DNA from: Paramacrobiotus metropolitanus
Lineage: Eukaryota > Tardigrada > Eutardigrada > Parachela > Macrobiotidae
NCBI RefSeq assembly: GCF_019649055.1
Contig: NW_026570226.1
Location: 2,914,001 to 2,978,000, forward strand
Length of the DNA: 64,000 nucleotides
Direction of reading: 5' to 3'
The notes under the pieces are model-generated. The model saw only the letters and a list, made by a program, of their open reading frames with translations. It had not been told where the DNA came from and ran no database searches. How positions within the stretch are numbered: position 1 is the stretch's first letter; each line of letters begins with the position of its first letter. A program made the position numbers and the translations under genes. Positions 1 through 64,000 of the stretch are shown here, in pieces.

Positions 1-1189
1 ACACATCTAAAATACCGCCTTTCTAAAGGTCAAGACCCTTCAAACAATCTTTGATCCCTCAAAATCATTCACAAATACTGAAAATTCTTCTTGGAGGCTT
101 TACTAATTATCCTTAAACAATACTTTTTAAAGCAAATACTGAATGATATTAGGGCTTTATACTGCTCATATAGCGAGGTAAAGGACTAATAATATTTATG
201 TCAGAATTGTGCTTTCAGAACGATCATCCAGCTTTGAATAAACGAATAAGGTAAGTAAGGATCAGACCAACCCACTCCACTGGTCCAGATATCAATCGGT
301 AAAATGCTCACTTTGCAGGAACCGTATTCACACCTCGTCGGCAGAGGAGCTACGAGAATTCCTAGTAGCATGAAACAGCGCTGACTGTTATGCGCCATGG
401 TAGTGGTCAATGAGAAGCGATTTTTAGAATATTTATTCAGCTGTGTTCGTTTGCATCAGAACAAAATCAGCAACTAAATATGTTTCATGCGTTACGTCCG
501 TGTTGTTGCGTAACTACTGCTTCCGTACGTATAACTGCTGCATCCCTTCTGTCGTTTCTCGCGTTGCTTTCCCGGAATGATAGCTTCAAAAAGAACGAGG
601 TAGACTGCGTGCGACCCGCATGCGACCGTCAGCAGGATGACAAACACGTACGGCAGCGTTTCGGTTTCGTCAATCACACATGAGAAGAGCGCCAACCACA
701 TGCTCAACCAGACACATCCCATCAGGCCAGTGTTTATGATAACACCGTGAAGCCTTCGTTTAACAGGATTCTCTATGACACCGTTAAGCTTGTCCAGAGC
801 TGCCAGGTCCTTTTGAAGCCTACGATTTGCTATAAACAAAAATATTAATGAGACTACAGATATGCTTTCAACTGTGCATTTTTCAGTGAATATTGTAGTT
901 AAAAAAAACTTACAGATAAAGTATATAAGCACAGCCGAGATGTTAAGTAAGGCTACAAGCAATACAGGCACCATAAAGGTCACCCATGGTATCCAGATAT
1001 TATCGTTGCCTAACCAGCACCTGTAAAAAAACAGCTCTCTTGCAATATCTGCCATTCACTGCAGAAAAAATTGGCGTTTCCTGGTTACCATTTTTCATGA
1101 CTGGCGTAACCATAGCCACTGTTAGGAGCGTGGCTCTGTTCGTTAGGTTGCCGGCTGTACGGAGAATATCTTACGATATTCTGCTGTAC

Positions 1190-1268
1190 GCCGATAGCCT
1201 AGTGGTGCCTCTCTCGGCTTTAAAGTATAGAGGACGCGGGTTCGATTCCCGCAGTCGGCAGATTTTTT
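1190..1268 (+). other. tRNA-like element with A box, B box and T-run
   Basis: A perfect A-box match (TAGCCTAGTGG, 1195-1205) and B-box match (GGTTCGATTCC, 1239-1249) are followed by a six-T run at 1263-1268, the layout of a Pol III unit. The T arm (GCGGG/CCCGC around TTCGATT) is perfect and the acceptor ends pair GCCGA with TCGGC. I cannot fold normal D and anticodon arms: the only good middle stem, CCTCT/AGAGG, leaves a 16-base loop. A tRNA-derived SINE head or degraded tRNA is therefore likelier than a working tRNA. It lies inside a TM exon of gene A, on the opposite strand. Confidence 0.45.
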
Positions 1269-3301
1269 GCGAGTTATGTAGTCAGCAGCGGCCAGTCTGG
1301 CACCACCTAGAAGTTGCGCCAAACTTTCGGAGAATTCCGGCACTGAGGCCAAAAGAGGAAATAAACAGGGGATAACTAAAACCACACGAGGAATGTGCTA
1401 CTAGCTTTGAATGCATTTACGGGAATTCAAAAAAAAGTAAAGGCGTTCAAGTTTCCCGGTAATGGAGCGCTGCAACACTAACTTGTCGCTGCCAACCAGT
1501 TTTTTATTCTGAATTCATGATAACTGTCGTTAGGGAGAGACCGCATTCTCTCATACGCTTCTGGACGCCGCAGAACCATGACGATGCGCACTGTTTGAAC
1601 AGCTGTCCAAGCAACACTCATTAACGCGAACCAGTGCACAAGAATGGCGTTGGCCAAACAAAACTTTTGTCCGCACATTCCAGGGAAATAAACCATCAGC
1701 TGCGAGGATATTATAAAGCAGTACATGCCGAACAGGGCGATCCACAAACCTATCCGAAGGAAATTCTTTTCGTCGTACACAATTCTTCCCCGCCATGCTT
1801 TCGCGCTGGAAAAAATTAAGGAATCAGCAATTTTTTTCAGAGCCAAACTACTTTATTTCAATGCTTGATATAGTCAATATATACATATAAGATCGATGGA
1901 ATTGGAGCCTTTTATCCATGCATACACGACGTTTACTAGACAGGCTGCAATGGCACTCCCTGCAATCGCATTTACCAAGACAGTGCTAATTCTTGAGCTA
2001 CTCGAAAATATCGGCTTTGCTGTTTTTAGACGTTTGATTCATCAACGGTCAGGTTCTTACATTATGATAATTAAGGCAATGAGGCAACAGACTGTGGAGA
2101 TAATCGTCGTTGTTGTGGTCACAATGGCCAAATCCAGAGTGAGGGGTTTATCCTTGGAAACAAACGAATTCGGCAAGCTGCCACACAGCGTCAGTAAAAG
2201 AGAGAACGGCGTCAAATGGTCACACGTGCACTCCACAACCGTATCGTTCCATTTGGGATATTTAGCTGATACTCTGCATCCATCTCCCGACCATTGTTTG
2301 GTAGTATAATTCAGAAATATGTGCTGCCTTCTCGCGCCGAATGGATACTGAAAAGCAGAATTTTTTTTAATATATTCAAGACTAAATTGTGGAAACCATT
2401 CCGACCTTACATTAAACAGCTGATCCACGTTATGCCGAATGGTAATTATATCTTTCCCCTTCAAGCTTTGCCCCACGGATGCCAGTAATACTAAAGGACT
2501 TGGCCTTTCCCGTACTTCGCTAACCGGAATGTATCTGGCGAATATGAATGACGGCATCGCGGAAAGAGAAAACGTGAACTTCGCGCCCGTCTCATTAAAG
2601 CTTACTGTTTTTTCTGCAGAGTTAAACAAGTTGAATTTTATAAAAGGTATGGAATAGAGGTTCTTTCCATGAACCCACTCAGTTCCTCAAACGCTTCCCG
2701 CAGTACATTGTCCTTAAATGCAATTGTGGCCACAGAGGTGGTGCTTTCGTTTGTCCGAGCAATAGTTATTGCTCCACGGTTGAAGCCGGCAATATCCATT
2801 CGGGTTTTGAACAATAACTCGTCGAACCGCGAAGACGCGTTAATTTGAATGGCATGCGCATATGCAGCTGAGGATGTGTCGTTAAACACGTAAGGTTCCT
2901 CTGATGGCGGTAGAGTATTGTACATATTTTCCAGAGCCTGGTAAATAGTGGATGCGGCATCCTGTCCGTCCTTCTCCGCCGTTGCTGCTGCGACTTTTCC
3001 AGATTCCTCCGCAAGGACGATTTGATCGGCGATTTGCAACATTGTGTTGATGGCGTCTTTCTGAGCGCCCTCTGGCAAATCAGGGGGAATTTCTGTCTGT
3101 CCTGCGATTCTTGAAAGAAATTTGCGGTCGTCAAAATGTCGTTGAAAGTGAGTTCTATGCTTTCGTTCTTAACACCGCTCTGAATCGCGTTCAGGACGTT
3201 ATGCGTCGACTCCGTATAATAAGACGTTTTGTTAGGATATGCTGCATTGTTGGTAACATACTGCAACTCCACAGTGACAGGGGATGGCGTTGTAGCAGTT
3301 T

Positions 3302-4366
3302 CTGCAACATGATCGAACTGATTCTGAATACAGGCGCACTGAAACGAAACGTGACGAGAAGAGCGCAGTTGGCGTCAAGACAAAGGGAATAACCGTAATT
3401 ACCGAATTTGTATCCCTGGGTGCAAAGACTGTAGTTCGAAGGTCATGGCGGCGGGGGACTTATTTCGGAGAGGAGCGCAATTTCGGGAGGTGGAAATGTT
3501 TTTCAAACGGTTTATTTTGGAAGTGGATAAATTATTGTTTCAATCAATTGGGAAACTTGTTCTAGTGAAACTGAACGCAATAGTTATCGGTATATTGTAG
3601 CGATAGTATTTTGTACGCCCAGTTATGATGAATCATTCCATCGCGTTATGAATTTGTCCACTTTACCGGCTAGTTTCCTTTCTCATGAACTTCTAGAATT
3701 CAGTCTTGTGCTCAGCTTGCTACAGCTTGCATCTACTTGTGTTTCTCTTGCCGAAACCCTTGCTTACAACCTTGCTGTGTTCTTGATTCCCTTGTCATTA
3801 AACATGCCTTGAGTTACGTTGTTGCGTTTGACCGCTTGCGATGAACTAGCGTCATCCCAATCGGTGCCACCTGTGTAATTGTGTACATCAGTAAGAGCGT
3901 CCTCGGCCAGCATCGTTGCCGGCCGTGCCACCTTTCACACCAACAGCCGTTTAATCGTGGTAAAGGCTGATCGCCATCCCACTAGAACAGTAGCCAGATA
4001 GGCCACTGTTACAATATGCAACTGCACAACCTTGCGAGCGACATTCTGAAGGGTATGCCCTCCTGTACAGCCGTATGCCAACGAACACCACATCATGTTG
4101 GTCTCCCTTTACTGTTTCCCATAAAATCACAACAGCTGTTATGAAACAATTTCGGTACACCTATCATTTTGCAGCGTTGACATTTAATAACGGCCCCCTT
4201 GGGGCAAAATTTCGGGGGATGGGCTAATTTTTAAACCTGGCTCGGTGAGGGCGCTTTTTACAAGGGGGCTCTTATTGCGGGGGGAACCACAAATTTGATG
4301 ATTATGGTAATGTTTTTCCACGCAACCCAATTTGACCTTGCAGATATGAATACATTTCGAGTTTAC
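3302..4366 (-). other. Long intron of gene A, no gene seen
   Basis: About 1.07 kb between the second Thr-rich linker exon and the GAIN exon, far longer than the usual 60-130 base introns of this family. Reading frames inside are short and unlike any other protein in the window. GC-rich short inverted runs lie near 4190-4290. If genes A and its MAM-like half are really two genes, the boundary is here. Confidence 0.4.
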
Positions 4367-7300
4367 CGGTTGTCATCGTAGTCGGCATCGGTGCTGTGCT
4401 CGTACGAGGAAACGTCGTGGGTTTCAGTGAAGTAGGCGGTGTCACTGTAGTTGGTTGCGATTGCGCTGACGTGGAAGTATTTCCTTGTGGCGTTGTAGTT
4501 AAATTCGAGAGCACCGTCGGTAAAGTTGGGCATATTCCGGCGGCCGGGCTCGCTGATGTGGCTACAATCAGAAGCAAAGCTATTGATCTTAAAATGCGTA
4601 AGCACTACTGCTACTACAAGGGACTTTGCTTAATTTTCTTTGCTTTTTCCATTAAATCGATTAAAACAAAATCCACTAGATTTGGTTCGTGACCGTGCTA
4701 AACTGGCCGTACCTAGAGTAGTAAGCAAAATACAATTAAAGGTTAAGCACGAACACGCCTTCCAGGAGGGCAGACGTGTACTGACCATATTGAATCCTAA
4801 TGGTATCCACAGCGATCTCCTTACGGTCAACTTCACAATTGTCATTGTGATAAGCGAACCAGTATACCGCATACGGCTGGCTTTCGTTACGATGAAAAAC
4901 TCCTTCGCCAGAGTACCAAACATTGGGCCGGAAACTGTCATAATCCTCTTCTCTTCCCCAGATCAGCTCGGTGGGAAATGTTTCTTCGTTATTCTCGACA
5001 AACACTTTGAGATGGAACTGGTTTTGTGGATTGACAGAATCGAAGACCGGGTAATCAGATAGGCGATACCAAAATGTTAAACGCCACACAATACAAGCTG
5101 CCGGACCGATATTGGGGCTCCGGAGAACGGCCACGGCATCTTCGCTGTCGGGCGCAGCGCCAAAAGGTCTCCGGGTGCAACGCGACAAAGCTATCACGTC
5201 AACTATCATAAATCCAGAAGCAAACATTAGCAAAAAACTGACCACTTTGCCGCAGTACAATTAGAAAATCTTCGTAAATGTCGCTAACCAATTTTGTCAT
5301 CAGAGGTCTGGTCGTTTTCCACCAAATCGAACTGATACGGAAAGTATCTGTACCCTCGGAACCAACTCGGACAGGCAGCAATGCCTGTGGCAGTGTTGTC
5401 TGGCTGGATCTCTGTTCCCAGAACACAATTCCCTCCCTTCAAATTTGCCCATCTGTAACATGGTGCTGGTAGAGGGCAGATCACTCCAGTCGTCGGTTTG
5501 GCTGTCGTTACAACTGATGACGATTCCGTAGCGGTACCGGTGCTTGTGGAGAACGTCGAAGTCATCGTTGTTGATGTAAATATTGTTGACGTAATAGCCG
5601 GTGTGGGTTTTGTTGTGGCGAAAGTTGTCGGGCAAGAGTCGGCTGTAAGAAACAATACTGCTATACTGAGTTATTTAAAGTTGCTTGAAATCAAGGCTAT
5701 ATTTAATGCAAGTCATCGGTGGCCTCATTAGCTTTCCCTACTGACCGTCAGCGTTATCAATGGCGATCTTGTCCAGTGTGATGCTTTTAACGTTGATTTG
5801 GCAGTCATCGTTATGGTATACCAACCAGTTTATCGTAAACTGTGCGCCACTGGACCTCACAAAAGATACCTCCGCAAAATTCCATTGTCTGAGGAGAAGG
5901 CCGACATAATCAGTTTCTCTTCCCCAGATTAAATCAGAGGGAAACGGCTGACCGTTATCTTCAATTAACACTTTCAAATGGAACTCATTTTGCTGATTTC
6001 CGGGAACGAATACTGGAGGATCCGAAAGGCGGTACCAGAAAGTAACGCGAAAAATTTTACAGTCAGGGGGTACGAGTATCGGCCCTCGGAAAATGGCTAC
6101 GGGTTCATTCCTGTCGGGAGACTGACCGAAAGTCCTTCTCATGCAGCGTGACACAGCGATAATACCACCTGTGAATAAACCTTTTGGGCAGCTATTACGG
6201 CTACCGTAGTGATCAAACAGAACTCCTCCTTCGATTGTACACGAGCTAGAATAATTACAAATGTGAAACTAGCCTGAATGTTTATCTGACCTGGCTCGTT
6301 TTCAGCATCTTCATTATCTTCGACAAGATCAAACTGATATGGAAGATACCTGTAGCCGCGGTACCATGTAATAAAAGGCGGATTGGAACACGCCATGACA
6401 CCAGTGCCGTTGGCTACCTGGCTAGTATTTCCCATATCGCAGGACCGTAACGACACCCATTCGATTCGTTCGTTGTGCTCAGCACTTACACGAAAGCGCC
6501 TCGGTAAAGTTGTTCCTGCAAAATAAAAGGTCTTGAAAAATTTGTTATGTGCTACTTTTGCTTCTATACAAAAACTCCGATTTAAGTTGCCCAGTAAAAA
6601 CGATGAAGGATGAACGATAGTGCTAACCGCTTTATACGAAGATAAGCTTAGTACGAAATAAAGGTGTTTCGCGAGAAGGCTGCATCGACGACAAAGTAAC
6701 GTAAACGATAATAGACTAGGATGTGATAATAATTATATTATGAGCATGAACATGTACGAGCGAGGCATTCACAAACATGTGAACAGCCGCTAATCCATGT
6801 AAACAATAGTCCATGTTTTGCTTTGTTTCATATTAGTTTTTTGCAGTTGTTCAGTAGGAACCGTTGATCGTGATGAATTCACCACTTGGCTTGACACTAG
6901 AACAGAATTTCATCTTTTATCATTTATTTTGAGATATTATTAAATCATCTTAAGCCTACCAATAACAAAAAATCAGATCAACAATGTCGAAATCAAATGT
7001 CATGCTGTGCAGACGCACATGCTCCACTTCAGACCATTAACTGCAAATTGAAATCAAAAACCGAGGAAAGAAAATTTCCAATTTTTCTGGCCACATTTAA
7101 AGTTTTCTAAAAAAAATCTGCCAACAGCGCGCAACCGCAAGCAGAATAAACCCGGGTCTGCATGCAACGGCTTTATCGGGTAATAACTTTTCAAATTATA
7201 TCCACAAAAGTTATCTTGACATGCACTGTACAACCGGCAGCTGTGCGGGTTAAAAACGAAATCTATCGGTGTAGATACATCGCGAGCAGCTCAAAATTCG

Positions 7301-8894
7301 TTGAAATACTTAAAATTAGCGCAACCTTATTCAGACACTCGACTGTGGAAGATGTCGTACCAAGTAATAAGACCGTTACCAGTATCCTGGGAACGTTATA
7401 TGTTACGAAATCCATCCGGTAGTGCAATAATTATAATCACTTCAATGAACAGATAAATTTTTTTCTGACACAAATTTCGCAACACTAGGTCTTTATCGTG
7501 GCTGGACAGATTCTCGGCAGCACTACCAATCTCGGTAAGGTACTCGTCATTTCACTTGTAATAGACTTGACACTTGACAGGCTGTGAAAGAACTTTAAAA
7601 TTGATTAGAAAATGATTACGGTATTCACGTCCACAGTTGAATCATGAGTCAGGTTTCACTGATAAGTGGCTCTTCTGTTACATTTAAAGTGATACTACTA
7701 CGCTTTGGCTGCTTCTGTTTAATGCTGTTTAATTACGTATCGTGCGTAGCTACTACCTTTTTGACTGCGTCGCTGTTACCAGTTTTATCTCCATTCCACT
7801 ACACCAAAGAACAAACCACCTTCTAATACGTACAATAGTTCCAGTGTATACATACCGCTGACACGTCAAGTATCACTGCTAGTCTCATCGTGCACTAAAA
7901 CATACCAGGCTTCAAATCTAATAGCAAAAATACAAATTCATGGATTCTACTAATCATGGCACATATGCAAGCTCCACACTTACAGGAAATCTCATCTCCT
8001 ATAGAAAGTTAGAATGCCGTTGTGAGTAATAATGCCGATGAGAGTAATAATTGCCGTATCAACTATCACCCATAAAAAATTTTTGCTTACAAAGGTTACG
8101 AGGGCGTGATCAAACAAGAATTAAATGCCAACCTAACACTACAATCATGATATTGCAATTCATTTATGCTAATTGCATTTTAGTTTAGTTTATTCGTTGA
8201 GCAGACGAGCCCTTGAGTCGCTCACAAGTCTGGTCAGCACAATGCTAAGATAAGACAAAAATACACAAGTACTACAAAAATTTTTAGATAAAACAAAAAT
8301 TTTTAAATTTTAACAGGGACAGTTGAATTTTAACAGAACCACAGGCAAAAATTCGTTTCTGCTTCTTTTTACTTTGTTAAACAAATCCTTCAGCGTAAAG
8401 CTACGGTGTTTTCCCAATTCGTAGTTCTGCCGCAGGCACATTCGAACGTACTTTCCGACGAAATCGTACCTCGTGCTAATGTCCTTGAGTCTTGAATGGA
8501 AAAAGGTCAGACACATATGCCGGTACATGGCCGCCGCCATACACAGATATGTACATAAATATAAACTGTAGTGGTTGAGACGCTGGGAGTTTTTGGCCCT
8601 CCTCTAACCAGGGCACGGTCAGAGGTTCCCCTCTCCGAAAAATTTGATTTTTTTTCTGGAGTGAGATTTGGCCCAGGGTATATTTTAAAAAATATTTTCA
8701 TAGGCAATGGTCCAGTGGGCGTGGCCAAACACGAATTTCATTGTTGACGGTATTGCATGTGTTGTCCCTGCCGTACTACTGCACTATTACTGATTACGAT
8801 AAATTTCATTTTCCAGGTTCTGTGGTACCCGTTATCATTCTGGGTTTTTATTTCTTAATTTTATTTTCGAAAGCACTTTTTCAAAAATTTAAAA

Positions 8895-11137: not shown

Positions 11138-14100
11138 ATGCTGTTTTACCGATTAGTGGCACCGTTCGCACTATTTCCATTTCTTGCTATAGGTAAGATG
11201 ATAATGTCAGGAAATGATTTGGTGAAGTTTCTGAATTGCAGAGGGACATAAAACATCCAATGCAGTATGAATTTCATTTACCATTATCAGAATCGAGAAT
11301 GCACAAGGGGCAACAAGTAACGATTTTGTTGGTGTAGTTTTCACCTTTACGTGTATAAGTGTATCTAGGTACATCGTCCACTTTGTAAAAGTGAGTACAG
11401 GCTAATGCAGGTTCGAACACCCGGGTAGCTTACGATAAAACAGAAAACTGACGATGCGCTCATGACAAGCTGGTCGGAATGGGCAGTCAAAATTTGGGTT
11501 AACCAGAAAAACAGTACTACATATTTTGGCTGAAATCATTAGTGACACTGATAATAAGCATGGTATGTTGTATGACAGGTATATTATACGATCGTCTGCC
11601 GCCTGTCCAGTTAAATTATCTCAAGCAGAACAGGAATGGCTGCAACTATCCCCACTCCGAAGGATTTTACACTTGGTTTGCTCTATCTCGCGGCAATGCT
11701 TTTTCCTGCGATATGGATGGCGCCCAGCAGAGCAGCGTCGGCGATCGGCTAGATGCCTGCCCGGACTGGTTACGAGCGTTCTCGCTCTATCCTATGCAAT
11801 TTCAGACGCTTCCACACAATTCCGATTCCGATAAAACCGTCATTTCCCAATATGCGCAATCAAGATGCTATATGAAAGCTGACTTGTTAGGAACTTATTA
11901 CAGCGAACGTAACACCGCTCCCATGGCATCAGCAAGATTCGTACCAAGTGGTTGCACAAAATTGCAGACTTCATTTTGGTACCGAATGTCATCTCAGCCG
12001 ATTATTACCAGAAACCGTAGCAGAAACTATTTTCTCGAATTGATATTATCTAAACAATACCCTGCCAATCTCATCGGGGAATCCTTACAGACTTTCCAGA
12101 TTTGGGGCAGCACAATCGATTTTCAGGGATTTCCCGGCGCCAATGTGTGGACGAATGCAGCGGTCGAGTATTCAGTGGACACCGCCACCGGTGTTTTCCT
12201 TAACTTTTTTGCGCATCATGGTGATACGTGCAACACCATGTCCATTGATTTGGATACTGTCGAGACGCGACTGGCAGGTGAGGCTTACAGTATTTTTCGA
12301 GTGAATGTATTTTCAGCCTGATGCGTTTCATACCGAAAGCAGTATCCTTCAATCTGACTCAACACAGCTCGGCGATGACTGACGCCATGTTTAATGAGGC
12401 TTATCGCGATGTGTTGTTCTAGTCCCAAAAAGGAACTGCAATGCCACCACAACGACTTCAGGCCCGCTTGTGTCTGAATTAACTAAAACGACCACAAGAA
12501 TGCCACTGTCACGTTCACCAAACCCAGTGTCACTATCAACATTTACTACGAGTGATACTCAGCTGCCAGTTGCGCTGTCGACAATTCGTGCAGCAACGGC
12601 TGTTCCGGCACAAATCGGTATGTAAATTGCGATGTTTAATTAGTATAACACCTTTCAGAATTTTGCAGTGCCTTGCCGAAGTGTATGTATGATTTCGATA
12701 ATACGAGATTTTCAGAAACCACCACTACAATGATATTATCACCCATCAGTGTGCAACTTCAGCAAGTAATCAACAAAGAAAATTACCCAAACACGACGGC
12801 CTACTATACTCAGTCGGCACATAACGTTTTGGAAACGCTGGAAAACGGTATCAAAAACGAGAGCTTAGAAACTGGCTTCGGAGACATTATGACGATAGCC
12901 CAATTCTTCCAAGAATTCGCGGAGATGCCTCCCCCGTTAGGTTTACTAGTGCCAGAAGGAGCGCAAGAGAACGCTGTTAACACTCTACTCCAGATTACGG
13001 ATGCAACCGCCAGCGCAGAGGAATCTGGTACAGTCACGGCAGACGATAGTCAACACGGACAATATGCCGCAGCCACCATTTATCAATCACTGGAAAAGAT
13101 GTATAACAATCTGCCGTTAGCAAAGGAACCCTATATATTCACGTCCACATACTCCTTGGCTTATGCTCATGTATTTCACATCAACGTTACGTCAATATTC
13201 GATCAGCCGAAAATGTATACAAAGCTGATAGTGTCTAGCTTCAGCTGGGAAAGAGGAATTACGAGTTCTACAAACGAGAGCATGGCTTCTGTAGCGGTGA
13301 TTAATCTTAACGTTAAAGCATTGCGGGAAGCCTACGAGGAACTAAGTAAGCTGTAGAAGTCCTGATCCAAATAATTCGTATACTAGTAGTTCGATTCTCA
13401 AATAAATCATTCATATTTTAGAAAATGGGGCCAATACAACAAGGTCTGTGTTTGCATTTTCGCTGTCCGCAATGCCTGAGTTCAGGTTTGCCAGATATAC
13501 CGGCACTAACGAAGCGCAAGTACGGTCAAGTCCAATAATGCTGCTGGCATCCGTGGATCACACGCTTAGTCGTAGAGATATTATCACCATTCGTCACAAT
13601 GTCGATCGATTGTTTCATGTAAGACAATCGACGGAATTTCAGACCGATTAGTTCGAAAGTGATCATTGATTATTGTAGAATCCGTCTGGCGTCAAAAGGC
13701 GTCACCAGTGCATCTTCCTGGATTACACTTTACAGCAGTGGTCGGAAGACGGGTGTAGGCTTACAGCCAAATATCCACAATGGGGCAACACCACCGTGGA
13801 ATGCACGTGTGATCATCTGACGCCGTTCTCGCTTCTGTTAACGCTGTGTGGCAGTCTGTCCAACTCTTTTGCTTCCAGAAAAGAACCTTTTACCTTTGAT
13901 CTGGCTGTTGTAACAACAGCCACCACCACGGTATCAGCCGTGTGCTGCCTGGTGTCCTTTGTTATCATAATGTAAAGTCTTGCTTGCAACATCTAATAAT
14001 TTTAGGATTTAATATTTAGCTTGACTAGCTTATATTCATTGGTTTTCAGCGTCAAAGTGTCACGGAAAACCGTCGTGTTTGACGAAGTGACATTTACCCG

Positions 14101-38002: not shown

Positions 38003-38162
38003 CGAGGACATTTGGGTGCTGTGAACATACCCTGCACGATTAGGCTGCGATGAACAGCCGGCTAAATTTATAGCCGTTTGCATTCAGACCGAGCTACGGC
38101 TAGCCAGCTGTTCATCGCAGCCTAATCGTGCAGGGTATGTTCACAGCACCCAAATGTCCTCG
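38003..38162. mobile_element. 160-bp palindromic element (TA target duplication) in the GAIN exon
   Basis: Perfect 56-bp inverted arms at 38003-38058 and 38107-38162, starting CGAGGACATTTGGGTGCTG, surround about 48 bases. TA stands on both sides (38001-38002 and 38163-38164); removing the element and one TA restores the paralogous reading (aatgatacg|tcttctgtg). Inverted ends plus TA duplication suit a non-autonomous Tc1/mariner-type element; the superfamily is inference. Confidence 0.9.
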
Positions 38163-41797: not shown

Positions 41798-44700
41798 ATG
41801 TCAGGAAGGCGTGCCAACGACGCAGCAGTATTGACTACCCTACTTTTTTCCTTTATTATCACTGGTAAGATGACAACCAATTAGATGACAATAACATTTG
41901 GAATTGATATACAGTTATACATTTCTTGTTAAGGTTTTCATCACTTTTTTTTTAAGCAAACGTCAGGCTCAGTCATGACAGAAAGGGATAACGCAAATGG
42001 GTGGCACGGATGTGTCAGATCCCGGCGTAATCATGAAGTATTTAAATTAATGAAGTATTAAGTGAAGTATTAAGAATTAAGTATGAAGAATTAATGAAGT
42101 ATTAATGAAGTATTAAAGATAAATGAAGTATTAATAAAGCAAAGTATACAAGTCAAGTACTTTAAAGTTTAATAAGCTAAAATGCAGAAAAAAAAACTTT
42201 CTCGTGTAACCCAGCTGCATAAAACGAAAAGGATATATGTGTACAAGACTGCAAACAGGAAGTTTAGCGCCATCAGCCAGCTTTCTCATAGACGGACGCT
42301 CTAGGCCATAGGTGGTATCTCTACTTTGTTAAAAATTCAGTTTGTTACTGTACCCGCGCGAGTTTAAGGGACAGAAAATTCCCCCGGAGCGCCCGCACTA
42401 GATGTCGGCAGCTTTGACATCAGGGAAACCGACGCCTAGCGCGGGCGGTCTGGGGGAATTTTCTGTCCCGTAAACTCGCGCGGGTACAGTACTTGCCAGT
42501 CATTAGTTTTTGAACCTTTCCGTTTATTGAACATTATTCTAAACTGAAGGGCATTCTAGACTGTACACCTCTTTTCCTGAGTTATAATATGTTCTCTGAG
42601 TTACTGATTCATTTATGAAGCAAGAGCATACAACTCGATTGCGGGACTCCAATGTCTACGAGTAGTTGGTTTCTTAAATTGTGCTGCTGTATCGATATTA
42701 TATTTTTATATGTACTGCCAAACAGAAAAACGGTTTTCCAGCTGTTGCATGTGCTGACTGATTCTGTCGTATCACATACAGCTCAGCTGGTTCACGATTC
42801 CACGGAATCTGACGTATGCGAAAATATATACGAATAAAATTTAAAACTATACTATGGAATAATAAAGGATGATACGCCAGATGCCAGATGGTAAGCGCAA
42901 TGAATGAATTTAACTGTAGGTAAAGGTGACTGACAGAAAAAAAAGTGAATCAAAAGGCACTGTACCAAGAATGACCACTTCACATTTAATGTTAAGTTGT
43001 GCAGAGAGTGGTAAGTTGTAACCGTCTACCAATTAACCTTAAGAAACGCCCTGTGGCCATTTGTTTAAGCGATTCAGATTTAATTACTTTCAAATTCAAA
43101 CCATTTTTTTAAATTTCTAAAATCATTTTGATAAGCTATGCTTCTCATCGTTCGTTTTTTTATAAATCGTGTAACTTTCTAGAAAGTTCCAACGTGACTT
43201 ACGCATCGATAAACCCGGGTTCCGCAAAAAACCAAACTCGCATGTGTATTTACCACGAAGAATGTTATATATATCCTCCTCAATCTCCCATAGGTCAGCT
43301 GACCTGCGAATTTGACAAAATTATGCATGGCAATGTAACGGTATTCCCAAATACATGCTCAAGCTGGTCTTTTACGCATTCGTTATATCCGTATCAGTTT
43401 CGAATTCTTCCAAGCACGGAAGTTGTAGGACGGGATCAAGATTCTGATTTCCAGTTTGCTCAGTCAAAATGCTATGTCAAAGACGATCCGCTATCCGCGT
43501 ATCCAGAAAGGAAATCTGCTATTCTGCGATCGCAGATCTTTCCTCCAAACGACTGTATGAAATTCCAAACCTCATTCTGGTACCGAATGTCAGCTGCGCC
43601 GATTCTCATTGGGCGTCCTGACAAAGATTATTTTCTGGAGTTATTAGTTCACCATTATCGCGATGACTCTCCCGATTTCATCCCAAAATGGCAGATTTGG
43701 GGTAGCAAGAGAGATTACGCGGGGTTTCTTGGTTCAAACCTATGGATCTATGTGGTCGCGGAATACGCTACTGATTCTCAATTTGCACTGACATTCCAAG
43801 CGCATCATGGCGATACCTGCAACCGCACATCCATCGATCTCGACAATATAGTCACAGAGGCTGCAGGTAGGCCTTAATAAATACGAGCCTTGTAAAAAAC
43901 CAATTTCTGAACTAAACGTTAAATTATGCCACAGTAAACCATATGAAGAAACAAAATGCACGGAATCTGGTATCCCAAAAATAAAATGCTGTTATCCGTA
44001 GTTCCGGCTGCTTGCCCATTCGATGAATCGGAAATTTTTATCGTAACTTCCACCGCTGCCGTTGTTGACAACGCAACAGAAGAAATTCCTGCATCTACTA
44101 TTCCACCAACGTCCATTACCATTGGTCCCATCACATCATCCAGCACCATTACCGAGGATACCACGACAACTACTCCTGACCTCACCACATCATCCAGCAC
44201 CATTACCGAGGATACCACGACAACTACTCCTGACCTCACCACATCATCCAGCATCATTACCGAGGATACCACGACAACTACTCCTGACCTCACCACATCA
44301 TCCAGCATCATTACCGAGGATACCACGACAACTACTCCTGACCTCACCACAACATCCAGCACCATTACCGAGGATGCCACAACATTTACTCCTGTTCCCA
44401 CCACAACACCCACCACCGTTACCGAAGATCCAGCCACCTCACCCGGCCCTTTCTTGGATGGTATTACGCAGTTGTGCATGCTACTCCCTCATCTACTGGT
44501 TGATGGTGTGTTTGAATAATTACAGGAGCAAGTGGCGTAATACAATCAGTACTCAGCGCTGAACTAAAAAATGTTACCAACAAAGAAAGCTACGCGAATG
44601 AAACCGAGTACTACGTTCATTCGGCTGACAATGTTTTAAATACCCTCAAAAGCGGTGTTAGTAATGGAAGCAGAAAACTCAGTTTCGAAGACATCGTTGC

Positions 44701-46983
44701 AACGTCCAAGTTTTTTGAGGAATTAGCGGGAACAAATGTAACTGCTGATCTACCAGAGGGGGCTCAGAAGGATGCCATAAAAACTCTCCTCCAGATTACA
44801 GATGAAATTGTAAGTGCTGAAGAATCTGGTAAGTTAGCCACATCAGTGGTAGGCGACGGGGGTCAGGATGCTGCAGCGGCTATCTACGAAGCACTAGAGG
44901 ACATGTACAATAGCTTACCTCCTGCGGAGGAACCCTACGTGTTTAATGATACTACTTGCGTGGCTTTTGTGAATGTGGTGGAAATCAACGGTTCTTCGCG
45001 GTTCGACGATCTGAAGTTTCGCACCACCATGGATATCACCGGTTTTGGTCAAGGAACATTGACTTTGGGTGACGATAACGAGAATGCCACTTCCGTGGCA
45101 ACGATTGCGTTCAAAGAAGACGTGCTAAGAGAAGCCTTTGAAGAACTGAGTGCGCTAAATTCAGTAAATTGCTTATGGTTCAAGGTCAACACTAAGAAAA
45201 ATACAAATTTTCCGTTATTGTAGAACAAACGGCCAATGAAACAAGCGCGAAATTCGCATTCTCATTGTCAGCTATGCCGGCATTTAAGTTCGCCCGCTCT
45301 ATTCCGTTGAACGAAGTTCGGGAGAGGTCAAGCCCTTTAGTCCTTTTGGCATCTGTAGGGATTAGTCTTAAGCGAAAAGACGTTATCACCATTCGGCACA
45401 ATATCGACCAGTTGTTTAATGTAAATCCAAGTTCAGTAATCATTCGTCCGTCGAACTAATAAATATCGTTTCTTAGTATCCATCAGGGGCCAAAAGACAT
45501 CACGAATGCATTTTCCTGGACTATACGTCTAAAAAATGGGAGAAAGACGGATGCAGATTGTCAGCTAAATACCCGAAGTGGGATAGCACGATTGTGGAAT
45601 GCACGTGTGACCATTTAACGCCCTTCTCCTTGTTATTGACTTTATGCGGCAGTCTGTCGAATTCTTTTGCACCAAACGACGAGTCGTTCACCTTTGATTT
45701 GGTTGTTGTGACCCTAGGGACGACGATTGTCTCGGCTGTCTGCTGCCTGATTGCTTTGATTACCATAATGTAAGTGACCATTACGGTTTAACGTAGAGCC
45801 CTTCGTTGTGACCAGCTCCGCTTTTTAGAATGAAAGCTTGGCGAAGAAAAGTCATCTTTGACGAAATGACCTTCACGCAGACCGGTCTATGGATTGTTCT
45901 GTTTGGAATGTATTTCTTCATCATCTCCTCCCAAATGATGGTTTTGATCCCAGAAATGTGTGGACAGAAATTCTGTTTAGCTAACGCCATTCTTGTACAC
46001 TGGTTCGCACTGATGAGTGTCGCGTGGACTGTAGTGCAGACAGTGCGTATCCTGCGGCTGACGCGCTACCCGGAAGAATATGGCCGGGAATACATTCCTG
46101 GGAGCAGTTACCGTATTTTCCGAATCAAGGCCTGGTTGATAGCGACAGGTTAAATTTTTGCGTAACGTAGACCTCTGCAGTAATTACAATTACAAGTGGA
46201 ATCTGTATTTAGCTATTCCCTGCGTGTTTCCTTTTCTGGCCTCCTTGCCGCATTTGTCTGAGAACTTCGCACTATTCGTTGGTGGTTACGGTTACGCAAA
46301 CCACGAAAAATGGTAAGCAAGCGACCAATTAAAAGGGAAAGCAGTTGACAGCGTCCTGTTTCTGTAGGTGCTGGCTGGACGGCGATCACTCGTGGATTCC
46401 ATGGGTGACCTTTATCGCGCCACTATCTACTGCAGGGATACTCAACGTATCGGCCGTGGTGTTCTACGTTTTTAGTGAGCAATCTTCTTTCGTAGTCATT
46501 GAGCATTATCAAACAGCTTTTTCGGTACTATAACTATTTGGTTGCAATTATTTTCACCCATTTTTGTTGGTAGCCACAAAAAAGCGCCAGAAAGAACTGT
46601 CAATACCTTATAAGCGCGCCATCACGCATGCGGATCCTGTCAGGCGGAAAGTGCATGGGATAATCATAACTACCGGCTTGATGGGATTGATCTGGTTGTG
46701 TTTGTGGCTGGCGCTGTTGTCCTGCTACGTTCATGAAACTGTGCAGTACGTTTTTGTTCTACTGCTGACCGTGGCCTGTGGATCGCAGGCCGTTTACATC
46801 ATCATTTTCCAAGCCATTATTCCGGAGAGGCGACCGAAACGATCATTACGTTCATTCTCCAGTTTGAGCGGTACACTATCAGGCATCAGCACAGTACCCC
46901 AAAGTGACCATGCGCCGGTCGAACACGTGGAACGCGGACTTTGTGACCTGTGGGTTCTTTGCTGCTGTTTTCGTTGCACCTAA
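41798..46983 (+). CDS. Gene E: adhesion GPCR, MAM-like / Thr stalk / GAIN / GPS / 7TM
   Basis: Ten exons: 41798-41864, 43183-43866, 44002-44460, 44526-45149, 45224-45420, 45477-45769, 45829-46148, 46213-46312, 46368-46474, 46574-46983; 3,261 nt in one frame, 1,086 residues. Signal peptide ending LTTLLFSFIITG; type I MAM-like domain (FWYRMSAAP, QIWGSKRDY, AHHGDTC); Thr stalk with a 60-bp repeat (SSSTITEDTTTTTPDLTT); GAIN with Asn sites; GPS with HL|T near residue 725 and agonist TPFSLLLTLCG; seven helices (HWFALMSVAWTVVQTVRI, GLMGLIWLCLWLALLS, YVFVLLLTVACGSQAVY). The tail ends in a Cys cluster (LWVLCCCFRCT) that could be lipidated. The 1.3-kb first intron holds an AT minisatellite and a palindromic element. 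Linking the distant signal exon is inference from phase and content. Confidence 0.87.
42045..42145. repeat. AT-rich minisatellite, aatgaagtatta unit
   Basis: Repeats of about 12 bases (aatgaagtatta and variants) in the first intron of gene E. Confidence 0.75.
42348..42489. mobile_element. 142-bp inverted-repeat element with TA duplication
   Basis: Ends CTGTACCCGCGCGAGTTTA and its complement, with arms continuing with small mismatches through agaaaattccccc, about 50 bases each. TA flanks both sides (42346-42347 and 42490-42491). It lies in the first intron of gene E. Its ends differ from those of the element at 38003, so it is another family with the same target preference. Confidence 0.8.
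44140..44400 (+). repeat. 60-bp tandem repeat in the gene E stalk
   Basis: Four near-identical 60-base units (agcaccattaccgaggatac...) encode SSSTITEDTTTTTPDLTT-type repeats. Units differ by one or two bases and extend the stalk in frame. Confidence 0.85.
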
Positions 46984-47927: not shown

Positions 47928-47936
47928 TATATAAAA
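47928..47936 (+). promoter_or_regulatory. TATA box of the globin gene
   Basis: TATATAAAA lies 69 bases before the globin ATG at 48005, which would give a 5' UTR of about 40-45 bases. Confidence 0.6.
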
Positions 47937-48004
47937 CACCGCGGTACACACTCAACCACAGTCAAGCAGTCACCGGGGCGATAAGCAGCGACGATTAGCA
48001 GACG

Positions 48005-50771: not shown

Positions 50772-53700
50772 TCAGCCGTATCTGTCGTCTTCCTCGTACT
50801 CGTAATCTAAGTAGGACGCCTTGTCGGTGTCCACACTGGATAGGGATAGCGCATCAACTGAAGACGTCGGTTTGGCTTTGGCATCGTAGATCAGATCGAA
50901 CCGCATCCCGGGGTTCGGCCGCGGTACCGTCTATGTAAACAGCGAGTTATATTGCGCGTTAGAGGAAGATGCTGCTTGAACGCATAATCTCTTCGTTGCG
51001 CTTCAAAAAAATATTTAAGAAAAGGGAATAATTATTGTTCTAAATTGTACATGCACAATTTTGTTACTTGCTTGCGCGCTTACCGTCTCGTTAATGGCTT
51101 CAACGACTGATTTAATCTCATCGTCACTAAGGATCGTCGACATGACGAGGTCATCTGGGGGCATGGCAATCTCTTCGGCATCCATGGAGGCCAGTGTTAT
51201 GTTCGTCTTGAATTCTTTTTGTGCTGTACTGTTCTTTGGTCTACAAAGATTACTGTGCATCAATATTCTACACGCACAATTATTTATGGCGCTAAACGGA
51301 TGTGACTCACTCTCTTCGAGACAGATAACAAAATAAAACGGTCAGACAGACAATTAGCGCTCCACCAATACCGATTACGGTGTAGATCAAGATCATAGGA
51401 GCTGTAGAAGGAAAAATGGTCAATAACCACAGGAGCAATGCTAACGTTATTCTGCCCAAAAATTAAAGGATAATCCGTTTGTTATTTGTGGCACCAAGGA
51501 TACAGTTTACTCACCGTCTGAATCCTCTGCAAATAAAAAACAACAGTATTAACAAGTGCCGCAGAACAAACAGAGTCAGGAGCATTTTTACCAGTGCAGT
51601 CGGCGTTAAAAGCTGATTGTAGCGGCCTTGAGAATCCTTGGCGACACGGACACTCAAATCCGCGTGCTACAACCCGATCGTTCAGGACACACACAGCGTT
51701 TTCACCGCACGGATCTTGCCGACAGGGATCGAACGTGCAGGATTTGCCAGTGTCCGACAAAAAATAAGGACCATCATTACATCGACACAATGTTTCCCCG
51801 GTGGTGGTGTTGAGCGCACAACCGGCTGTATTCTGGCCACAGTACCGAACGCCTTCGACGTCGCAGCGGTCAAAGAACTGTGCGGTGTTGGAGGAGACTG
51901 TCACTGGGGTTTGGTTGATGGTTGTGGTGAAAGCTATGACAGCAGCCGCCTGAAGGATTTCGGGCTCGCTCACCGTACTGTTAGTGTCGACAATTTGCAG
52001 TACGGTGTCGGCGAGCACGGAGCCTCGTCGGAATCCTTTCATTACGGCTCGGCAAGATCGGGAAGCTAACGTAAGATTGGCACACAATGCAGTTTGAATC
52101 TGAAAAGGAATCATTTCGGTGTCGATGTATGGCATGATGCAAGCAGTTCGATGTTTCTCGCATTCCGAACAACTGGCTGCTTTGGCAGACGCTTTAGAGC
52201 GCCAGTTATTTAATTTATCAGACACACAACGAACATAGATTAAGCTGGCGGTTGCATTAATACTGTAACTGTCTTTACATGTGAGTTCTGAAAACCACAA
52301 CTGATGCTTTTCCAGTATAACCCTACATCTGCTGATGCAGCAAGTTGTCCGGCACACGAAAGCAAAAAAGCATTACTGAAGTATGGCTCTTCCATACTGA
52401 CCTGTGGCACTATTTGGCTGACCAGTTCCTGAGATAGAATACTTGACATGTCTGCCAATTCCTCTTGGAACTCAAAGTCATTCAATCGGAAAGTAGCTTC
52501 CACAACGGCCTCAGCTATAGAACAATTTATTAGCTGCTGCAAAAACGCAGAACCAAACAAAAATATTATAACGATTCTTACGATCGCGGCAAAAGCCAGA
52601 TTCTTCATCCTTGTACTGACTAAATGCGCAGCGACAACTCATCAGAACCGAGTCCATGACGGAGCCATTCACGCACGGCATAATTGTTGTTTCTTCCGGA
52701 ACAGGTGTACTTTCCTCCGAAACAGGCGACGGTTCCTCCGGTAGCGATGTAGTTTCGCCCGGTTCCGGGGTGGTCTCATCTGTTACTTGTGCGGTTTCCT
52801 GCGTCTCTAATGTTGTCTCATCTGATTCGGGTGTGGTTTCCTCAGGTACTGGCGTCGTTTCTCCGGTCTCGGGCGTTTCAGCAGGGGTCGTTTCACCCGG
52901 CTCAGGTGTTGTCTCTTCTGAGACAAGTGTGGTTTCGTTAGACACAGGTGTGGTTTCTTCAGGAACCGGTGTTGTCTCCTCTGGTTCAGGTGTTTCTTCC
53001 GATACCGGTGTAGTCTCCACTGGTTCAGATGTGGTTTCCTCTAGATCGGGTGTCGTTCCTTCAGGATCAGGAGTTGTTTCACCTGGAACCGGTGTAGTTT
53101 CCTCAGGGTCAGGAGTTGTTTCCTCAGGTTCAGGGGTTGTTTCTCCTGGAACCGGTGTCGTCTCCTCAGGGTCAGGAGTTGCTTCCTCAGGATCTGTTGT
53201 CGTTTCTACGGGTTCCGGTGTGGTTTCCTCTAGATCGGGTGTCGTTCCTTCAGGATCAGAAGTTGTTTCACCTGGAACTGGTGTAGTTTCCTCCGGTTCA
53301 GGAGTTGTTTGCTCCGGAACCGGTGTTGTCTCATCAGGTTTAGTTGTTTCCTCTGGATCTGGGGTCGTTTCTACCGGTTCCGGTGTTGTTTCCCCTGGAA
53401 CGGGAGTGGTCTCTTCTGGTTCAGGAGTTGTTTCTTCCGGGACCGGTGTAGTTTCCACTGGGTTCTGTGTGGTTTCCTCCGGATCGGGTGTCGTCCCTTC
53501 AGGATCAGCAGTTGTTTCACCTGGAACCGGTGTAGTTTCCTCCGGTTCAGGTGTTGTTCCCTCTGGCACTGGTGTTGTTTGCTCGGGTTCAGGAGTTGTT
53601 TCTCCTGGAACCGGTGTCGTCTCTTCAGGTTCAGGGGTTGTATCCTCCGGAACCGGGGTCGTTTCTGCGGGTTCCGGTGTGGTTTCTCCTGGAACGAGAG

Positions 53701-56560
53701 TCGTCTCTTCTGGTTCACGGGTTGTTTCCTGTGGAGTAGATGTAGTTTCCTCTGGTTCAGGCGTTGTTTCCTCTTGAACTGGAGTCGTCTCCTCAGGTTC
53801 AGTTGTTTCTTCCGGGACCAGCGTAGTTTCCACTGGTTCTGGAGTGGTTTCCTCTGGAACGGGAGTCGTCTCTTCAGGTCCAGGAGTTGTATCCTCCAGA
53901 ACCGGTGTCGTTCCTGCGGGTTCCGGTGTGGTTTCCTCTGGAGTTGGTGTAGTTTCCACTGGTTCAGGAGTTGTTTCCTCTGGAGTAGATGTAGTTTCCT
54001 CTGGTTCAGGCGTTGTTTCCTCTGGAACGGGGGTCGTCTCTTCAGGTCCAGGAGTTGTATCCTCCGGAACCGGTGTCGTTTCTGCGGGTTCCGGTGTGGT
54101 TTCCTCTGGAGTTGGTGTAGTTTCCACTGGTTCCGGTGTGGTTTCTTCTGGAGTTGGTGTAGTTTCCACTGGTTCCGGTGTGGTTTCCTCTGGAGTTGGT
54201 GTAGTTTCCACTGGTTCCGGTGTGGTTTCCTCTGGAGTTGGTGTAGTTTCCACTGGTTCCGGTGTGGTTTCCTCTGGATCGGGTGTCGTCTCTTCTGGTT
54301 CAGGAGTTGTTTCCTCTGGAGTAGATGTAGTTTCCTCTGGTTCAGGCGTTGTTTCCTCTGGAACGGGGGTCGTCTCTTCAGGTCCAGGAGTTGTATCCTC
54401 CGGAACCGGTGTCGTTTCTGCGGGTTCCGGTGTGGTTTCCTCTGGAGTTGGTGTAGTTTCCACTGGTTCCGGTGTGGTTTCCTCTGGAGTTGGTGTAGTT
54501 TCCACTGGTTCCGGTGTGGTTTCCTCTGGAGTTGGTGTAGTTTCCACTGGTTCCGGTGTGGTTTCCTCTGGATCGGGTGTCGTCTCTTCTGGTTCAGGAG
54601 TTGTTTCCTCTGGAGTAGATGTAGTTTCCTCTGGTTCAGGCGTTGTTTCCTCTGGAACGGTGGTCGTCTCTTCAGGTCCAGGAGTTGTATCCTCCGGAAC
54701 CGGTGTCGTTTCTGCGGGTTCCGGTGTGGTTTCCTCTGGAGCAGGTGTAGTTTCCACTGGTTCGGGAGTGGTTTCCTCTGGAGTAGAGGATGTTTCCACT
54801 GGCTCAGTAGTGGTTGCCTCTGGAACAAGTGTAGTTTCCTCTGGGACAGTAGTATTTTCCTGAGTTGTAATGGGGGTGGTGTCTTCTGGCACAGCAGGCT
54901 CGAGTGTTGTGGTATCGCAACCAGGTAATGGCACTGAAAATGGACAACTCGCTTAAATAATTGACGCTGGTTTCAGTAAATGTGGGAATTATTATTTTGT
55001 GTTTTAGTACTATAAACGTTTTTTCTTGTTGCCACAAAGGCTTGTCAAAAAGCCATAGATTTGGTAAGCAAAAAGCGCGCCACATTTTATCAGCACACGA
55101 GAAGTATTTTATAAGCCCGAGCACTCTAACGGGTGATGCATTGTTGCGGTATGTGGGTGTATGTCGGCGATGGTGCTTTACTTGATTAAAACGAATTTGT
55201 GAGATAACAGCTTATGCTACTCGCAGTACTAGTACGGTGTGTTGCGCTTAATAAAACCTGTCGGGCTGATCTTCTGGCTATGGTGCCGGAACATCAATGA
55301 TCAGATATTTCCCTGTTAAATAACAGTCTACCGGGTGCCGAGACTTTCTTGCTCTCTTGGGTCCACACCGTAGTGTGGTTATCGGCAGTGAGTAAACGTG
55401 GCACTGGCAGGTGCCCCTGTCGTAATTATCCGAGTGAAATGCGACAACTGGACGATGCAAGTACGTAGTACTGGTCAGCAAGGTCTGACTAATGAACTGC
55501 ACGTTTAATAGTTCCATCGTGATGCATGATTGCCCACATTGCCTGAGTCCAGTTAACACAAGTCATCAGACCACGCATGTCGAGCAACCATAAGCTGCTG
55601 GTGTCCATCCGGGGTTTACAGATTACTGTACAGCAAACATTTATCCACTTTGCTGAATCGCGGGACCGACATTAGTGAATGTCAAGGTATCGACATTTAG
55701 AAGCATCAAGCTCCCGATGGGGAAAAGTTAATTTCTGTGCTTTTTTCGCCGACGATTAGCATATGAGGCTGTGTGATACTAGTGAAATTATGATTGTATC
55801 ATTATCGTTGTTCCAGTAGTAAACCGAAATGAACGAGAGGGCTTAATCCTGTTCTGATGTCGTGTTTTACCTGCTATTCTGGTGTCGATGCCATCTAGAT
55901 CGATGGATGTCGTGTTGCAAGTGTCGCCGTGATGCGCGTAGAAATTGAGAGTGAACTGGTCGTCCGCAGCGTATTCCGTTTGGACCCGTGTCCACACATT
56001 CGGACCGGGAAAAGTTGCGTAATCGCTGGTGCTGCCCCAGATCTGCCAGTTCGGGATGAAGCCAGGTGCGTTATCCGCGGAATGATGCACTACTAACTCC
56101 AGAAAGTAATCTTTGTCGCGGTCACCAGTGATTATCGGAGCAGCAGACATCCGGTACCAGAAGGTTGTTTGCAGTTTGACGCAGCCGTTTGGTCGAAAGG
56201 CAGCTGATCGCATGGTGGCTGATCTTCTGTTGGGGTATGCAGAATTGGGAGCAAATTTGACGTAGCATTTCGACTGCGCAAACTGGGAATAAATCTTCCC
56301 TGCAGCTTCTCCACCTATTTCAATGGGTAGGATCTGGAACCGGTAGGGATAGAGCGAAAATGCCCGGAACCAGCCGGGACAAGGATCCAGAACTGCATTG
56401 GGACTGGTCTGCTGGACGCTGTCCAGATCACAGTTCAACGTAGTGTCGGACAGAGAAGTCCATGAGTAACAATGCTCCGGATACGGATAGTCGCAGTTGC
56501 TTCTAACTTGTTTTGAGATATCATGTTCCGACCAGATTGGGATGCTCCTGCAGAAAGTCT
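50772..56560 (-). CDS. Gene F: MAM-like / long Pro-Thr-Glu mucin / SEA-EGF / single-pass receptor
   Basis: Minus-strand exons 56560-55871 (type I MAM-like, CDYPYPEHCYSW ... FWYRMSAAP ... AHHGDTC), 54933-52582 (mucin of about 780 residues, opening VPLPGC and ending in a Cys motif CVNGSV...CRC), 52514-52402 and 52099-51592 (SEA with FRRGSVLAD, then two EGF modules, CGQNTAGC and CRQDPCGENAVC), 51526-51515 (12-base microexon), 51401-51311 (helix MILIYTVIGIGGALIVCLTV), 51240-51084 and 50930-50772 (acidic tail ending EYEEDDRYG). All phases agree, giving 1,360 residues after the missing signal exon. The 0.94-kb intron joining MAM and mucin rests on phase and on the shared VPxxC start of linker exons. 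A membrane mucin, probably cleaved in the SEA domain. The tail is unlike those of the 20 and 24 kb genes. Confidence 0.8.
52700..54850 (-). repeat. 42-bp mucin repeat with larger duplicated blocks
   Basis: The coding strand repeats TPTPEETTPEPVET (14 residues, 42 bases). Larger blocks recur: the plus-strand string gtatcctccggaaccggtg starts near 54057, 54393 and 54687, spacings of 336 and 294 bases, exactly 8 and 7 units. The right half is the most homogeneous and the left half the most diverged. Confidence 0.93.
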
Positions 56561-63892: not shown

Positions 63893-64000
63893 CTGCCGAA
63901 AAAAATTCATGTATTTTAAATTGCTGCGTCAGCTTCAGAAATTGGTAAAAACGGAAAACAAACATAATTAAAGGAATTAAAGCCGCTAAAATAAAATTAG

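Follow-up and report, generated by a model that had tools for sequence, protein, structure and literature searches.

Related MAM-like heads on GAIN/GPS-7TM, SEA and other modules in a gene cluster of the tardigrade Paramacrobiotus metropolitanus

We analyzed a 64,000-nucleotide stretch of the Paramacrobiotus metropolitanus genome (contig NW_026570226.1, here C6, positions 2914001-2978000), hereafter the window; gene coordinates are window positions. It contains eight neighbouring genes (g1-g8), whose exon chains were assembled from open frames, GT-AG sites and intron phase (Table 1). In all eight, a signal-peptide exon (tentative in g7) is followed by a homologous head and a threonine (T)-rich stalk, with a T content of 22-47% in the stalk pieces counted. 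This is the arrangement proposed in an earlier reading of the same DNA (the original prediction), except that one head per gene does not apply to g1, which carries two heads and two stalks. The limits then given to the cluster, 492..56560, were too narrow: its last gene ends at 57638, and leftward the cluster continues for about 130 kb beyond the window.

The genes differ in the anchor that follows the stalk. A GPS with a putative GAIN domain before it and seven transmembrane helices (7TM) after it, the GAIN/GPS-7TM module, is present in g1, g2, g6 and g7, and a probable SEA domain with one transmembrane helix (TM) in g4, g5 and g8. The order of modules is EGF-SEA-EGF-TM-tail in g4 and g5; in g8 a Cys-rich piece precedes SEA, which is followed by two EGF-like parts, TM and tail. 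The chains of g2 and g5 were fixed before the NCBI proteins were looked at, and each is one intron apart from an NCBI protein: P0007 for g2 and P0014 ('mucin-13-like') for g5. Residues 401-1080 of the g7 model are covered completely (100%) by P0004. This protein ('adhesion G protein-coupled receptor L3-like', window 39000-46983) opens with TM2-7 of g6 and continues into g7; it seems to result from an annotation error next to the breaks in g6, by which g7 was falsely fused to the last helices of g6.

Table 1. Features of the cluster in window positions.
Feature	Span	Strand	Parts
g1	492..7415	-	Signal exon 7361-7415; head 1 (type B) 6291-6515 + 5746-6168; stalk 1 + first half of head 2 5289-5642; second half of head 2 4786-5202; stalk 2 4337-4561; GAIN 2679-3301 (frame break); GAIN end + GPS + TM1 2061-2613; TM2-7 1483-1805, from 1375, 914-1048, 492-829
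g2	11138..15273	+	Signal 11138-11192; type A head 11579-12277; stalk 12423-12617; GAIN 12716-13345 and 13422-13618; GPS + TM1 13679-13971; TM2-7 14050-14372, 14630-14905 (partly spliced out in NCBI model), 14978-15273
g3	16454..18927	+	Signal 16454-16502; type B head 17239-17481 + 17643-18059; T/S-rich stalk + C-terminal hydrophobic stretch 18419-18927
g4	20033..23742	+	Signal 20033-20093; type B head 20362-20610 + 20690-21106; stalk from 21637 (frame break near 22223-22253), EGF-like part to 22427; SEA 22486-22595 + 22686 on (FRNGSVV); EGF-like part; TM about 23175-23269; tail 23351-23510 + 23581-23742 (PPIY, YASI)
g5	24682..28397	+	Signal 24682-24736; type B head 24925-25179 + 25409-25825; stalk + EGF-like part 25908-26717; SEA 26777-26886 + 26952-27369 (FRNGSII), with EGF-like part; TM 27423-27519; tail 28007-28397 (PPVY, YASI)
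g6	33557..40234	+	Signal 33557-33605; type A head 33883-34563; repeat stalk 35237 to 37410 (99-bp repeats 35447-37257; frame break near 36160); GAIN from 37577, interrupted 38001-38164, resumes to 38362, then 38423 on; GPS exon with frame break near 38740; 7TM exons to 40234
g7	41798..46983	+	Signal 41798-41864 (tentative); type A head 43183-43866; stalk 44002-44460; GAIN 44526-45149 + 45224-45420; GPS + TM1 45477-45769; TM2-7 45829-46148, 46213-46312, 46368-46474, 46574-46983
g8	50772..57638	-	Signal 57584-57638; type A head 55871-56560; T/P/E repeat stalk + Cys-rich piece 52582-54933; SEA 52402-52514 + first part of 51592-52300 (FRRGSVL; Cys-rich insert between helix 1 and strand 2); two EGF-like parts in 51592-52300; TM 51311-51401; tail 51084-51240 + 50772-50930
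Foldback (MITE-like) insert in g6 GAIN exon	38001-38164		164 bp; arms 38001-38064 and 38101-38164 (64 nt), 98% complementary

The heads fall into two types. Type A, encoded by one exon, is found in g2, g6 and g7 (7TM) and in g8 (SEA), and type B, encoded by two exons, in g1 (7TM), g3, g4 and g5 (the latter two SEA). Thus, both head types occur on both putative self-cleaving modules. Type A heads are recovered in a search with a type B head (best E about 3e-12), so that the heads of the 7TM and single-pass genes are related, as the original prediction needed them to be. None of the window heads scanned against Pfam/NCBIfam, nor proteins P0001, P0007 and P0014, gave a MAM hit. A related exon on another contig (C37:752804-753148) passes Pfam MAM with 35.1 bits (cut-off 26.4); searches with either head type reach it (E 4.2e-10 and 4e-5), and it aligns with the other heads in hhalign at E 3.9e-21. 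Taken alone, this exon scores only 15% against three canonical MAM domains of the same genome. The modelled head is a MAM-type jelly roll, and in fold searches it resembles MAM structures and also Eph: the Foldseek list is led by LAST-MAM and the VIA list by meprin chains, which contain MAM, while CBM4 modules come second, fourth and fifth in Foldseek and Eph ligand-binding domains are level with most MAM chains. A PDB profile search with the head alignment returned only three chance matches to SarA. Based on the intermediate exon and on the fit of the model, we take the window heads to be divergent MAM domains, in line with their earlier description as MAM-like.

In the 7TM genes, the GPS exceeds the Pfam cut-off of 22.5 bits in the g7 GPS exon (30.7) and in P0007 of g2 (31.0). 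Among the places listed over the cut-off in a genome-wide search for GPS are g1, g2 and g7; g6, in which the GPS exon is split between two frames, is missing there. Four CTCDHLTPF motifs are present in the window, as expected from the original prediction of four receptors, but only g2 and g7 are uninterrupted 7TM genes as assembled. A profile of nine family proteins matched in the PDB the GPS of ADGRF1 (8.4e-7) and the 7TM of ADGRL2 (6.7e-6) and ADGRL3 (9e-4), the latter two at profile positions 731-865; ADGRG6 and ADGRG2 were matched over longer ranges, and ADGRD1 and ADGRG3 were also found. Integrin alpha-X appeared in the same search at 0.0011, probably by chance. Since HLTPFSL is invariant in all nine proteins and HLTPFSLLL in eight, the start of a putative tethered agonist appears to be kept, and its pattern fits that of known agonists. 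By these sequence criteria the GPS and 7TM are of the adhesion G protein-coupled receptor (GPCR) kind, with a tethered-agonist-like sequence.

The single-pass genes had been predicted to carry SEA with a G|S cleavage site, and the corresponding loop motif FR(N/R)GS is indeed present in all three SEA exons (FRNGSVV in g4, FRNGSII in g5, FRRGSVL in g8). A profile of g4 and g5 finds the ADGRF1 SEA in the PDB with E 0.0018, improving to 1.7e-4 once a shortened g8 row is added. In the model of P0014, a helix (535-557) is followed by two strands (566-575 and 579-588) and another helix (592-608), and FRNGS (574-578) forms the turn between the strands, the expected place of the SEA cleavage loop. Fold searches with the P0014 model gave no SEA chains among the listed rows, which were filled by the head domain, and P0014 alone matched in the PDB only a cystatin at E 0.9. 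A genome-wide search with Pfam SEA gave two places outside the window, on C33 and C44, and nothing inside it; the window copies were probably missed by Pfam since they are divergent and split by introns. Considering sequence and model together, we assign a probable SEA-type joint to g4, g5 and g8, at which cleavage would occur.

The remaining parts of the SEA genes are a long stalk, the single helix and a tail, together with EGF-like parts, which in g4 and g5 match Pfam EGF models only below their cut-offs. The SEA of g8, unlike that of g4 and g5, has a 67-residue Cys-rich insert between helix 1 and strand 2 (about 52100-52300, minus strand). The g8 stalk is rich in T, P and E and has little S; its T/P/E-repeat region (52514-54952, minus strand) is over the cut-off for the Pfam herpesvirus Gp350 model, most likely through composition alone. 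As to g3, neither EGF, SEA nor 7TM was found in its frame, and its C-terminal hydrophobic stretch, read by eye, is probably a glycosylphosphatidylinositol (GPI) signal.

We then compared the histories of heads and anchors. The head tree comprised 27 heads, four of which had an unknown anchor and were counted under a label of their own. Left off the tree were heads represented by the first half only (C6:2781630, C6:2806941 and C37:757035), partial heads (C6:2821716/2822309, C14:1784221 and 1785158-1785564), and all heads on C42 and C58, together with most of those on C14 and the remaining ones on C37. Anchor labels require 15 changes on this tree, compared with a mean of 14.2 for shuffled labels, and a value as low was obtained in 179 of 200 shuffles. 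For the three SEA heads, three changes are required even if only branches with good support are considered. Approximately unbiased (AU) tests reject a single clade for the SEA heads (p 1.6e-7), for the g4 and g5 heads (2e-6) and for the 7TM heads (6e-72); the likelihood differences are very large, and we rely on the direction of these tests and not on the exact p. Pairwise identities tell the same story. The modules of g6 and g7 are 86% identical (over part of the GPS exon, for which the g6 row is the second piece only, and the TM2-3 exon) and their heads 54%, while the head of g6 (7TM) is 79% identical to that of g8 (SEA). Similarly, head 2 of g1 is 86% identical to the g4 head and head 1 of g1 75% identical to the g5 head, with 53% between the heads of g4 and g5. 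Judged by sequence, the heads do not follow the anchors, and we conclude that the two have independent histories.

DNA comparisons and intron phases bear on how this arose. The DNA match between g1 and g4 (82%) covers most of head 2 and ends 7 bases past the 3' end of the head exon; that between g6 and g8 (84%) covers most of the head exon and ends 3 bases past its 3' end. For g4 and g5 the listed match includes only the stalk end, EGF, SEA, TM and tail. All nine heads have a phase-1 intron on the stalk side, and on the signal side the best-scoring intron of each of the eight genes is likewise in phase 1, so that the head is a symmetric 1-1 module. For the signal-head joint of g4, a scan with a longer fixed core gave only poor phase-2 solutions and a freer scan a far better phase-1 one; for the g4 head-stalk acceptor, 21595 scored best, 21637 (0.2 lower) was used for its likeness to g3, and both are phase 1. 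The ratio of nonsynonymous to synonymous substitution rates (dN/dS), from pairwise counts, is 0.12-0.15 for the three cross-module head pairs, so that heads on SEA and on 7TM both look constrained. It is 0.24 for the g4/g5 SEA exons and 0.07-0.11 for the g6/g7 TM2-3 and TM6-7 exons. No diversifying selection on the heads was seen by pairwise counts, in which several dS values are near 1, close to saturation.

The wider cluster spans about 190 kb on C6. A type B head query matches 49 genome stretches and a type A query 52, many places being common to both; the matches lie on C6, C14, C37, C42 and C58. For the GPS exon there are 26 such stretches, of which some are fragments of a single exon, and for the g5 SEA exon three, all inside the window, the third (g8) being weak. 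Head-plus-SEA genes were found only in this window, and the contigs of the two Pfam SEA places are without listed matches in the head searches. In the mapped 198 kb (C6:2.780-2.978 Mb), a same-strand head lies in the expected place for 12 of the 13 GPS exons. Another module is represented by proteins P0001-P0003, which combine a type A head with a C-terminal domain of about 125 residues (for example, L006 9149-9823 for the head with L007 111-485). As these proteins show no membrane helix by eye, we call them the secreted form; in the Pfam scan of P0001 their C-terminal domain had no match. Seven copies of this domain are present on C6:2.78-2.98 Mb, each with a head upstream within 4 kb. According to the match counts, the family consists mainly of 7TM genes; secreted genes are also common, and the SEA genes represent a local addition. 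The original prediction of one head on two cleavage joints is thus borne out in that related heads sit on both GAIN-7TM and SEA, but it is too narrow, for GPI-like and secreted genes have the same heads.

Several further observations concern the extended cluster. Two places, C6:2827 kb and C14:1789 kb, were considered as additional SEA genes and rejected, as they hold EGF-EGF-TM frames with their own signal-like start and without a recognized SEA; these relatives of the EGF-TM part of g8 also have no recognized head. The EGF-EGF-TM-tail frames, L009 about 7220-8190 and L019 about 6180-7180, are kin of the C-terminal part of g8 and lie within the extended cluster. In C6:2.78-2.84 Mb and C14:1.73-1.80 Mb, head and GPS matches follow one another in a similar way and some of them score equally, which suggests a duplicated block or two haplotypes assembled apart. 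On the minus strand of L020, a 555-residue frame of N-glycosylation-rich repeats (DPLDNSTAFFNTT...) runs into an apparent first half of a head; it would represent another type of stalk within this head family. Protein searches, which needed shared 5-residue words and one of which scored only the 8000 word-richest candidates, found relatives under P. metropolitanus names only. At the right of the window (62294-63928, minus strand) there are exons of a Berberine-bridge-enzyme-like flavin adenine dinucleotide (FAD) oxidase (Pfam BBE, 45.1 bits).

Some of the genes are broken as assembled. There is one frame break in the GAIN exon of g1 and one in the stalk of g4; in g6, breaks occur in the stalk repeats and in the GPS exon, and the GAIN exon contains an insert resembling a miniature inverted-repeat transposable element (MITE). 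Relatives of this foldback element are dispersed in the genome. Several of them are 98-100% identical, so that its transposition looks recent; of 202 candidates in the genome search, 40 were scored, and these gave 80 listed matches, many of them from places counted on both strands. According to PMC11191345, Canu was used to assemble the published genome, and nanopore reads are available; hence the small frame breaks may be assembly errors, although the g6 insert is not of that kind.

We consider it fairly probable that divergent MAM heads on mucin-like stalks have spread by exon shuffling over several membrane modules and that the resulting proteins work in the manner of paired receptors. Phase-1 introns flanking the head would have permitted its shuffling onto GAIN/GPS-7TM, SEA mucin, probable GPI and secreted modules, and related heads would bind related ligands. 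In the GPCR module, GAIN would cut itself at HL|T, and pulling off the head would expose the tethered agonist TPFSLLL and turn the receptor on. In the SEA module, cleavage at G|S would allow head and stalk to be shed under load with no GPCR involved. The SEA, GPI and secreted forms may then serve as a barrier, a decoy or a separate sensor. A bolder version, which we regard as rather doubtful, is a combinatorial family, in which one head repertoire on GPCR, mucin, GPI and secreted outputs reads, buffers and decoys the same cue, be it chemical or mechanical, with the GAIN and SEA joints as functionally interchangeable carriers of one head.

A number of points weigh against the shuffling interpretation. 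The head tree has 24 inner branches, and only 5 of them have good support. Since introns diverge faster than exons, the ends of DNA matches at exon edges are weak evidence of breakpoints. All three SEA domains match Pfam SEA below the cut-off of 26.4 bits (22.9 for g4, 16.4 for g5 and 13.6 for unshortened g8). The tail with PPxY and YxxI, originally ascribed to the SEA genes in general, exists in g4 and g5; the modelled g8 tail has neither motif, and we rejected a common PPxY tail. Two of the four window 7TM genes (g1 and g6, the latter in three places) are doubtful as they are broken as assembled. The scan of P0001, P0007 and P0014 listed no match to Pfam 7tm_2, and the model of the GAIN-7TM protein is poor (mean predicted local distance difference test score, pLDDT, 43), so that its fold matches to GAIN and 7TM structures lend little support. 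Finally, conversion of heads between older genes would yield the same trees.

The last point introduces gene conversion as an alternative, which we would place on the unlikely side: the module combinations would be old, head exons would have been converted recurrently between neighbours, and the proteins would work alike. The tandem cluster of similar exons is suited to such a process, types A and B each occur with 7TM, SEA and secreted modules, and the likeness of g6 to g8 and of g1 to g4 is confined to the head in the listed matches. However, conversion alone makes no new combinations, and with SEA in only three window genes and 7TM common, the joining of SEA looks recent or rare. It is unlikely, in our estimate, that the genes form a lineage-specific surface-coat or barrier family, in which head and stalk matter, anchors are interchangeable and the GPCR part barely signals. 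The T-rich stalks in all eight genes, the secreted-looking and GPI-like forms and the broken state, as assembled, of two of the four 7TM genes in the window would be in keeping with a coat, whereas the low dN/dS of the g6/g7 helix exons and the nearly invariant GPS and tethered-agonist residues across nine paralogues argue against it. Very improbable is a non-MAM jelly roll (resembling an Eph ligand-binding domain or a carbohydrate-binding module) with MAM as a loose analogy, for although the window heads lack a Pfam MAM match, the C37 exon scores low against canonical domains, and CBM4 and Eph rank high, that exon passes the MAM cut-off and is matched by both head types, and MAM-containing structures top both fold lists.

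Returning to the shuffling of heads over several anchors, parts of this arrangement have counterparts elsewhere. The EGF-TM7 receptors (CD97, EMR2) are clustered adhesion GPCRs whose extracellular domains have been exchanged between paralogues; there the exchange is known between 7TM genes only, whereas the tardigrade cluster includes several anchors. In the KIR, SIRP and CEACAM/PSG paired receptors, close ectodomains occur on signalling, GPI or secreted forms within one cluster, with immunoglobulin or lectin heads and signalling through immunoreceptor tyrosine-based inhibitory or activation motifs (ITIM/ITAM), and with no known GPCR or SEA output. The SEA-type mucins MUC3, MUC12, MUC13 and MUC17 share the mucin stalk, SEA joint, one helix, tail and tandem clustering; the tardigrade cluster adds an N-terminal MAM-like head, and PPxY tails in g4 and g5. 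ADGRF1/GPR110, ADGRF5/GPR116 and ADGRG6/GPR126 resemble it in GAIN/GPS, seven helices and a SEA domain, and ADGRF1 is the best PDB match both to the cluster SEA and to the GPS of the 7TM family. These receptors have SEA and GAIN in one protein, while in the cluster the two are alternatives on different genes with related heads. Polycystin-1 and the sea urchin REJ proteins differ from the cluster in their heads and membrane parts. The likeness lies in the presence of GAIN outside adhesion GPCRs, described in PMC13197933. According to PMC6954182, SEA and GAIN are, to the knowledge of its authors, the only domains that are cleaved and yet stay associated; SEA cleavage is common to several adhesion GPCRs, and the SEA domains of ADGRF1 and ADGRF5 carry GSVVV or GSIVA. 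Extensive domain shuffling has also been suggested for adhesion GPCRs in general (PMC12716839), in a paper that does not mention MAM in its main text. Judged by titles, none of the papers found in searches on adhesion GPCRs with MAM, SEA and GAIN, on paired receptors with adhesion GPCRs, and on tardigrade adhesion GPCRs, mucins and MAM describes such a family.

The cluster is a variant of adhesion GPCRs and SEA mucins and not a new kind of system. Its particular feature is that homologous heads sit separately on GAIN, SEA, GPI-like and secreted-looking forms within one cluster. It places the SEA-type mucin architecture in a tardigrade and shows a route, by way of phase-1 introns, for the recruitment of adhesion-GPCR heads. 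Provided that the joints function as expected from sequence, the genes would offer matched natural constructs for the force threshold, shedding or signalling of each joint, and a natural experiment in which one sensor has apparently been put on different outputs.

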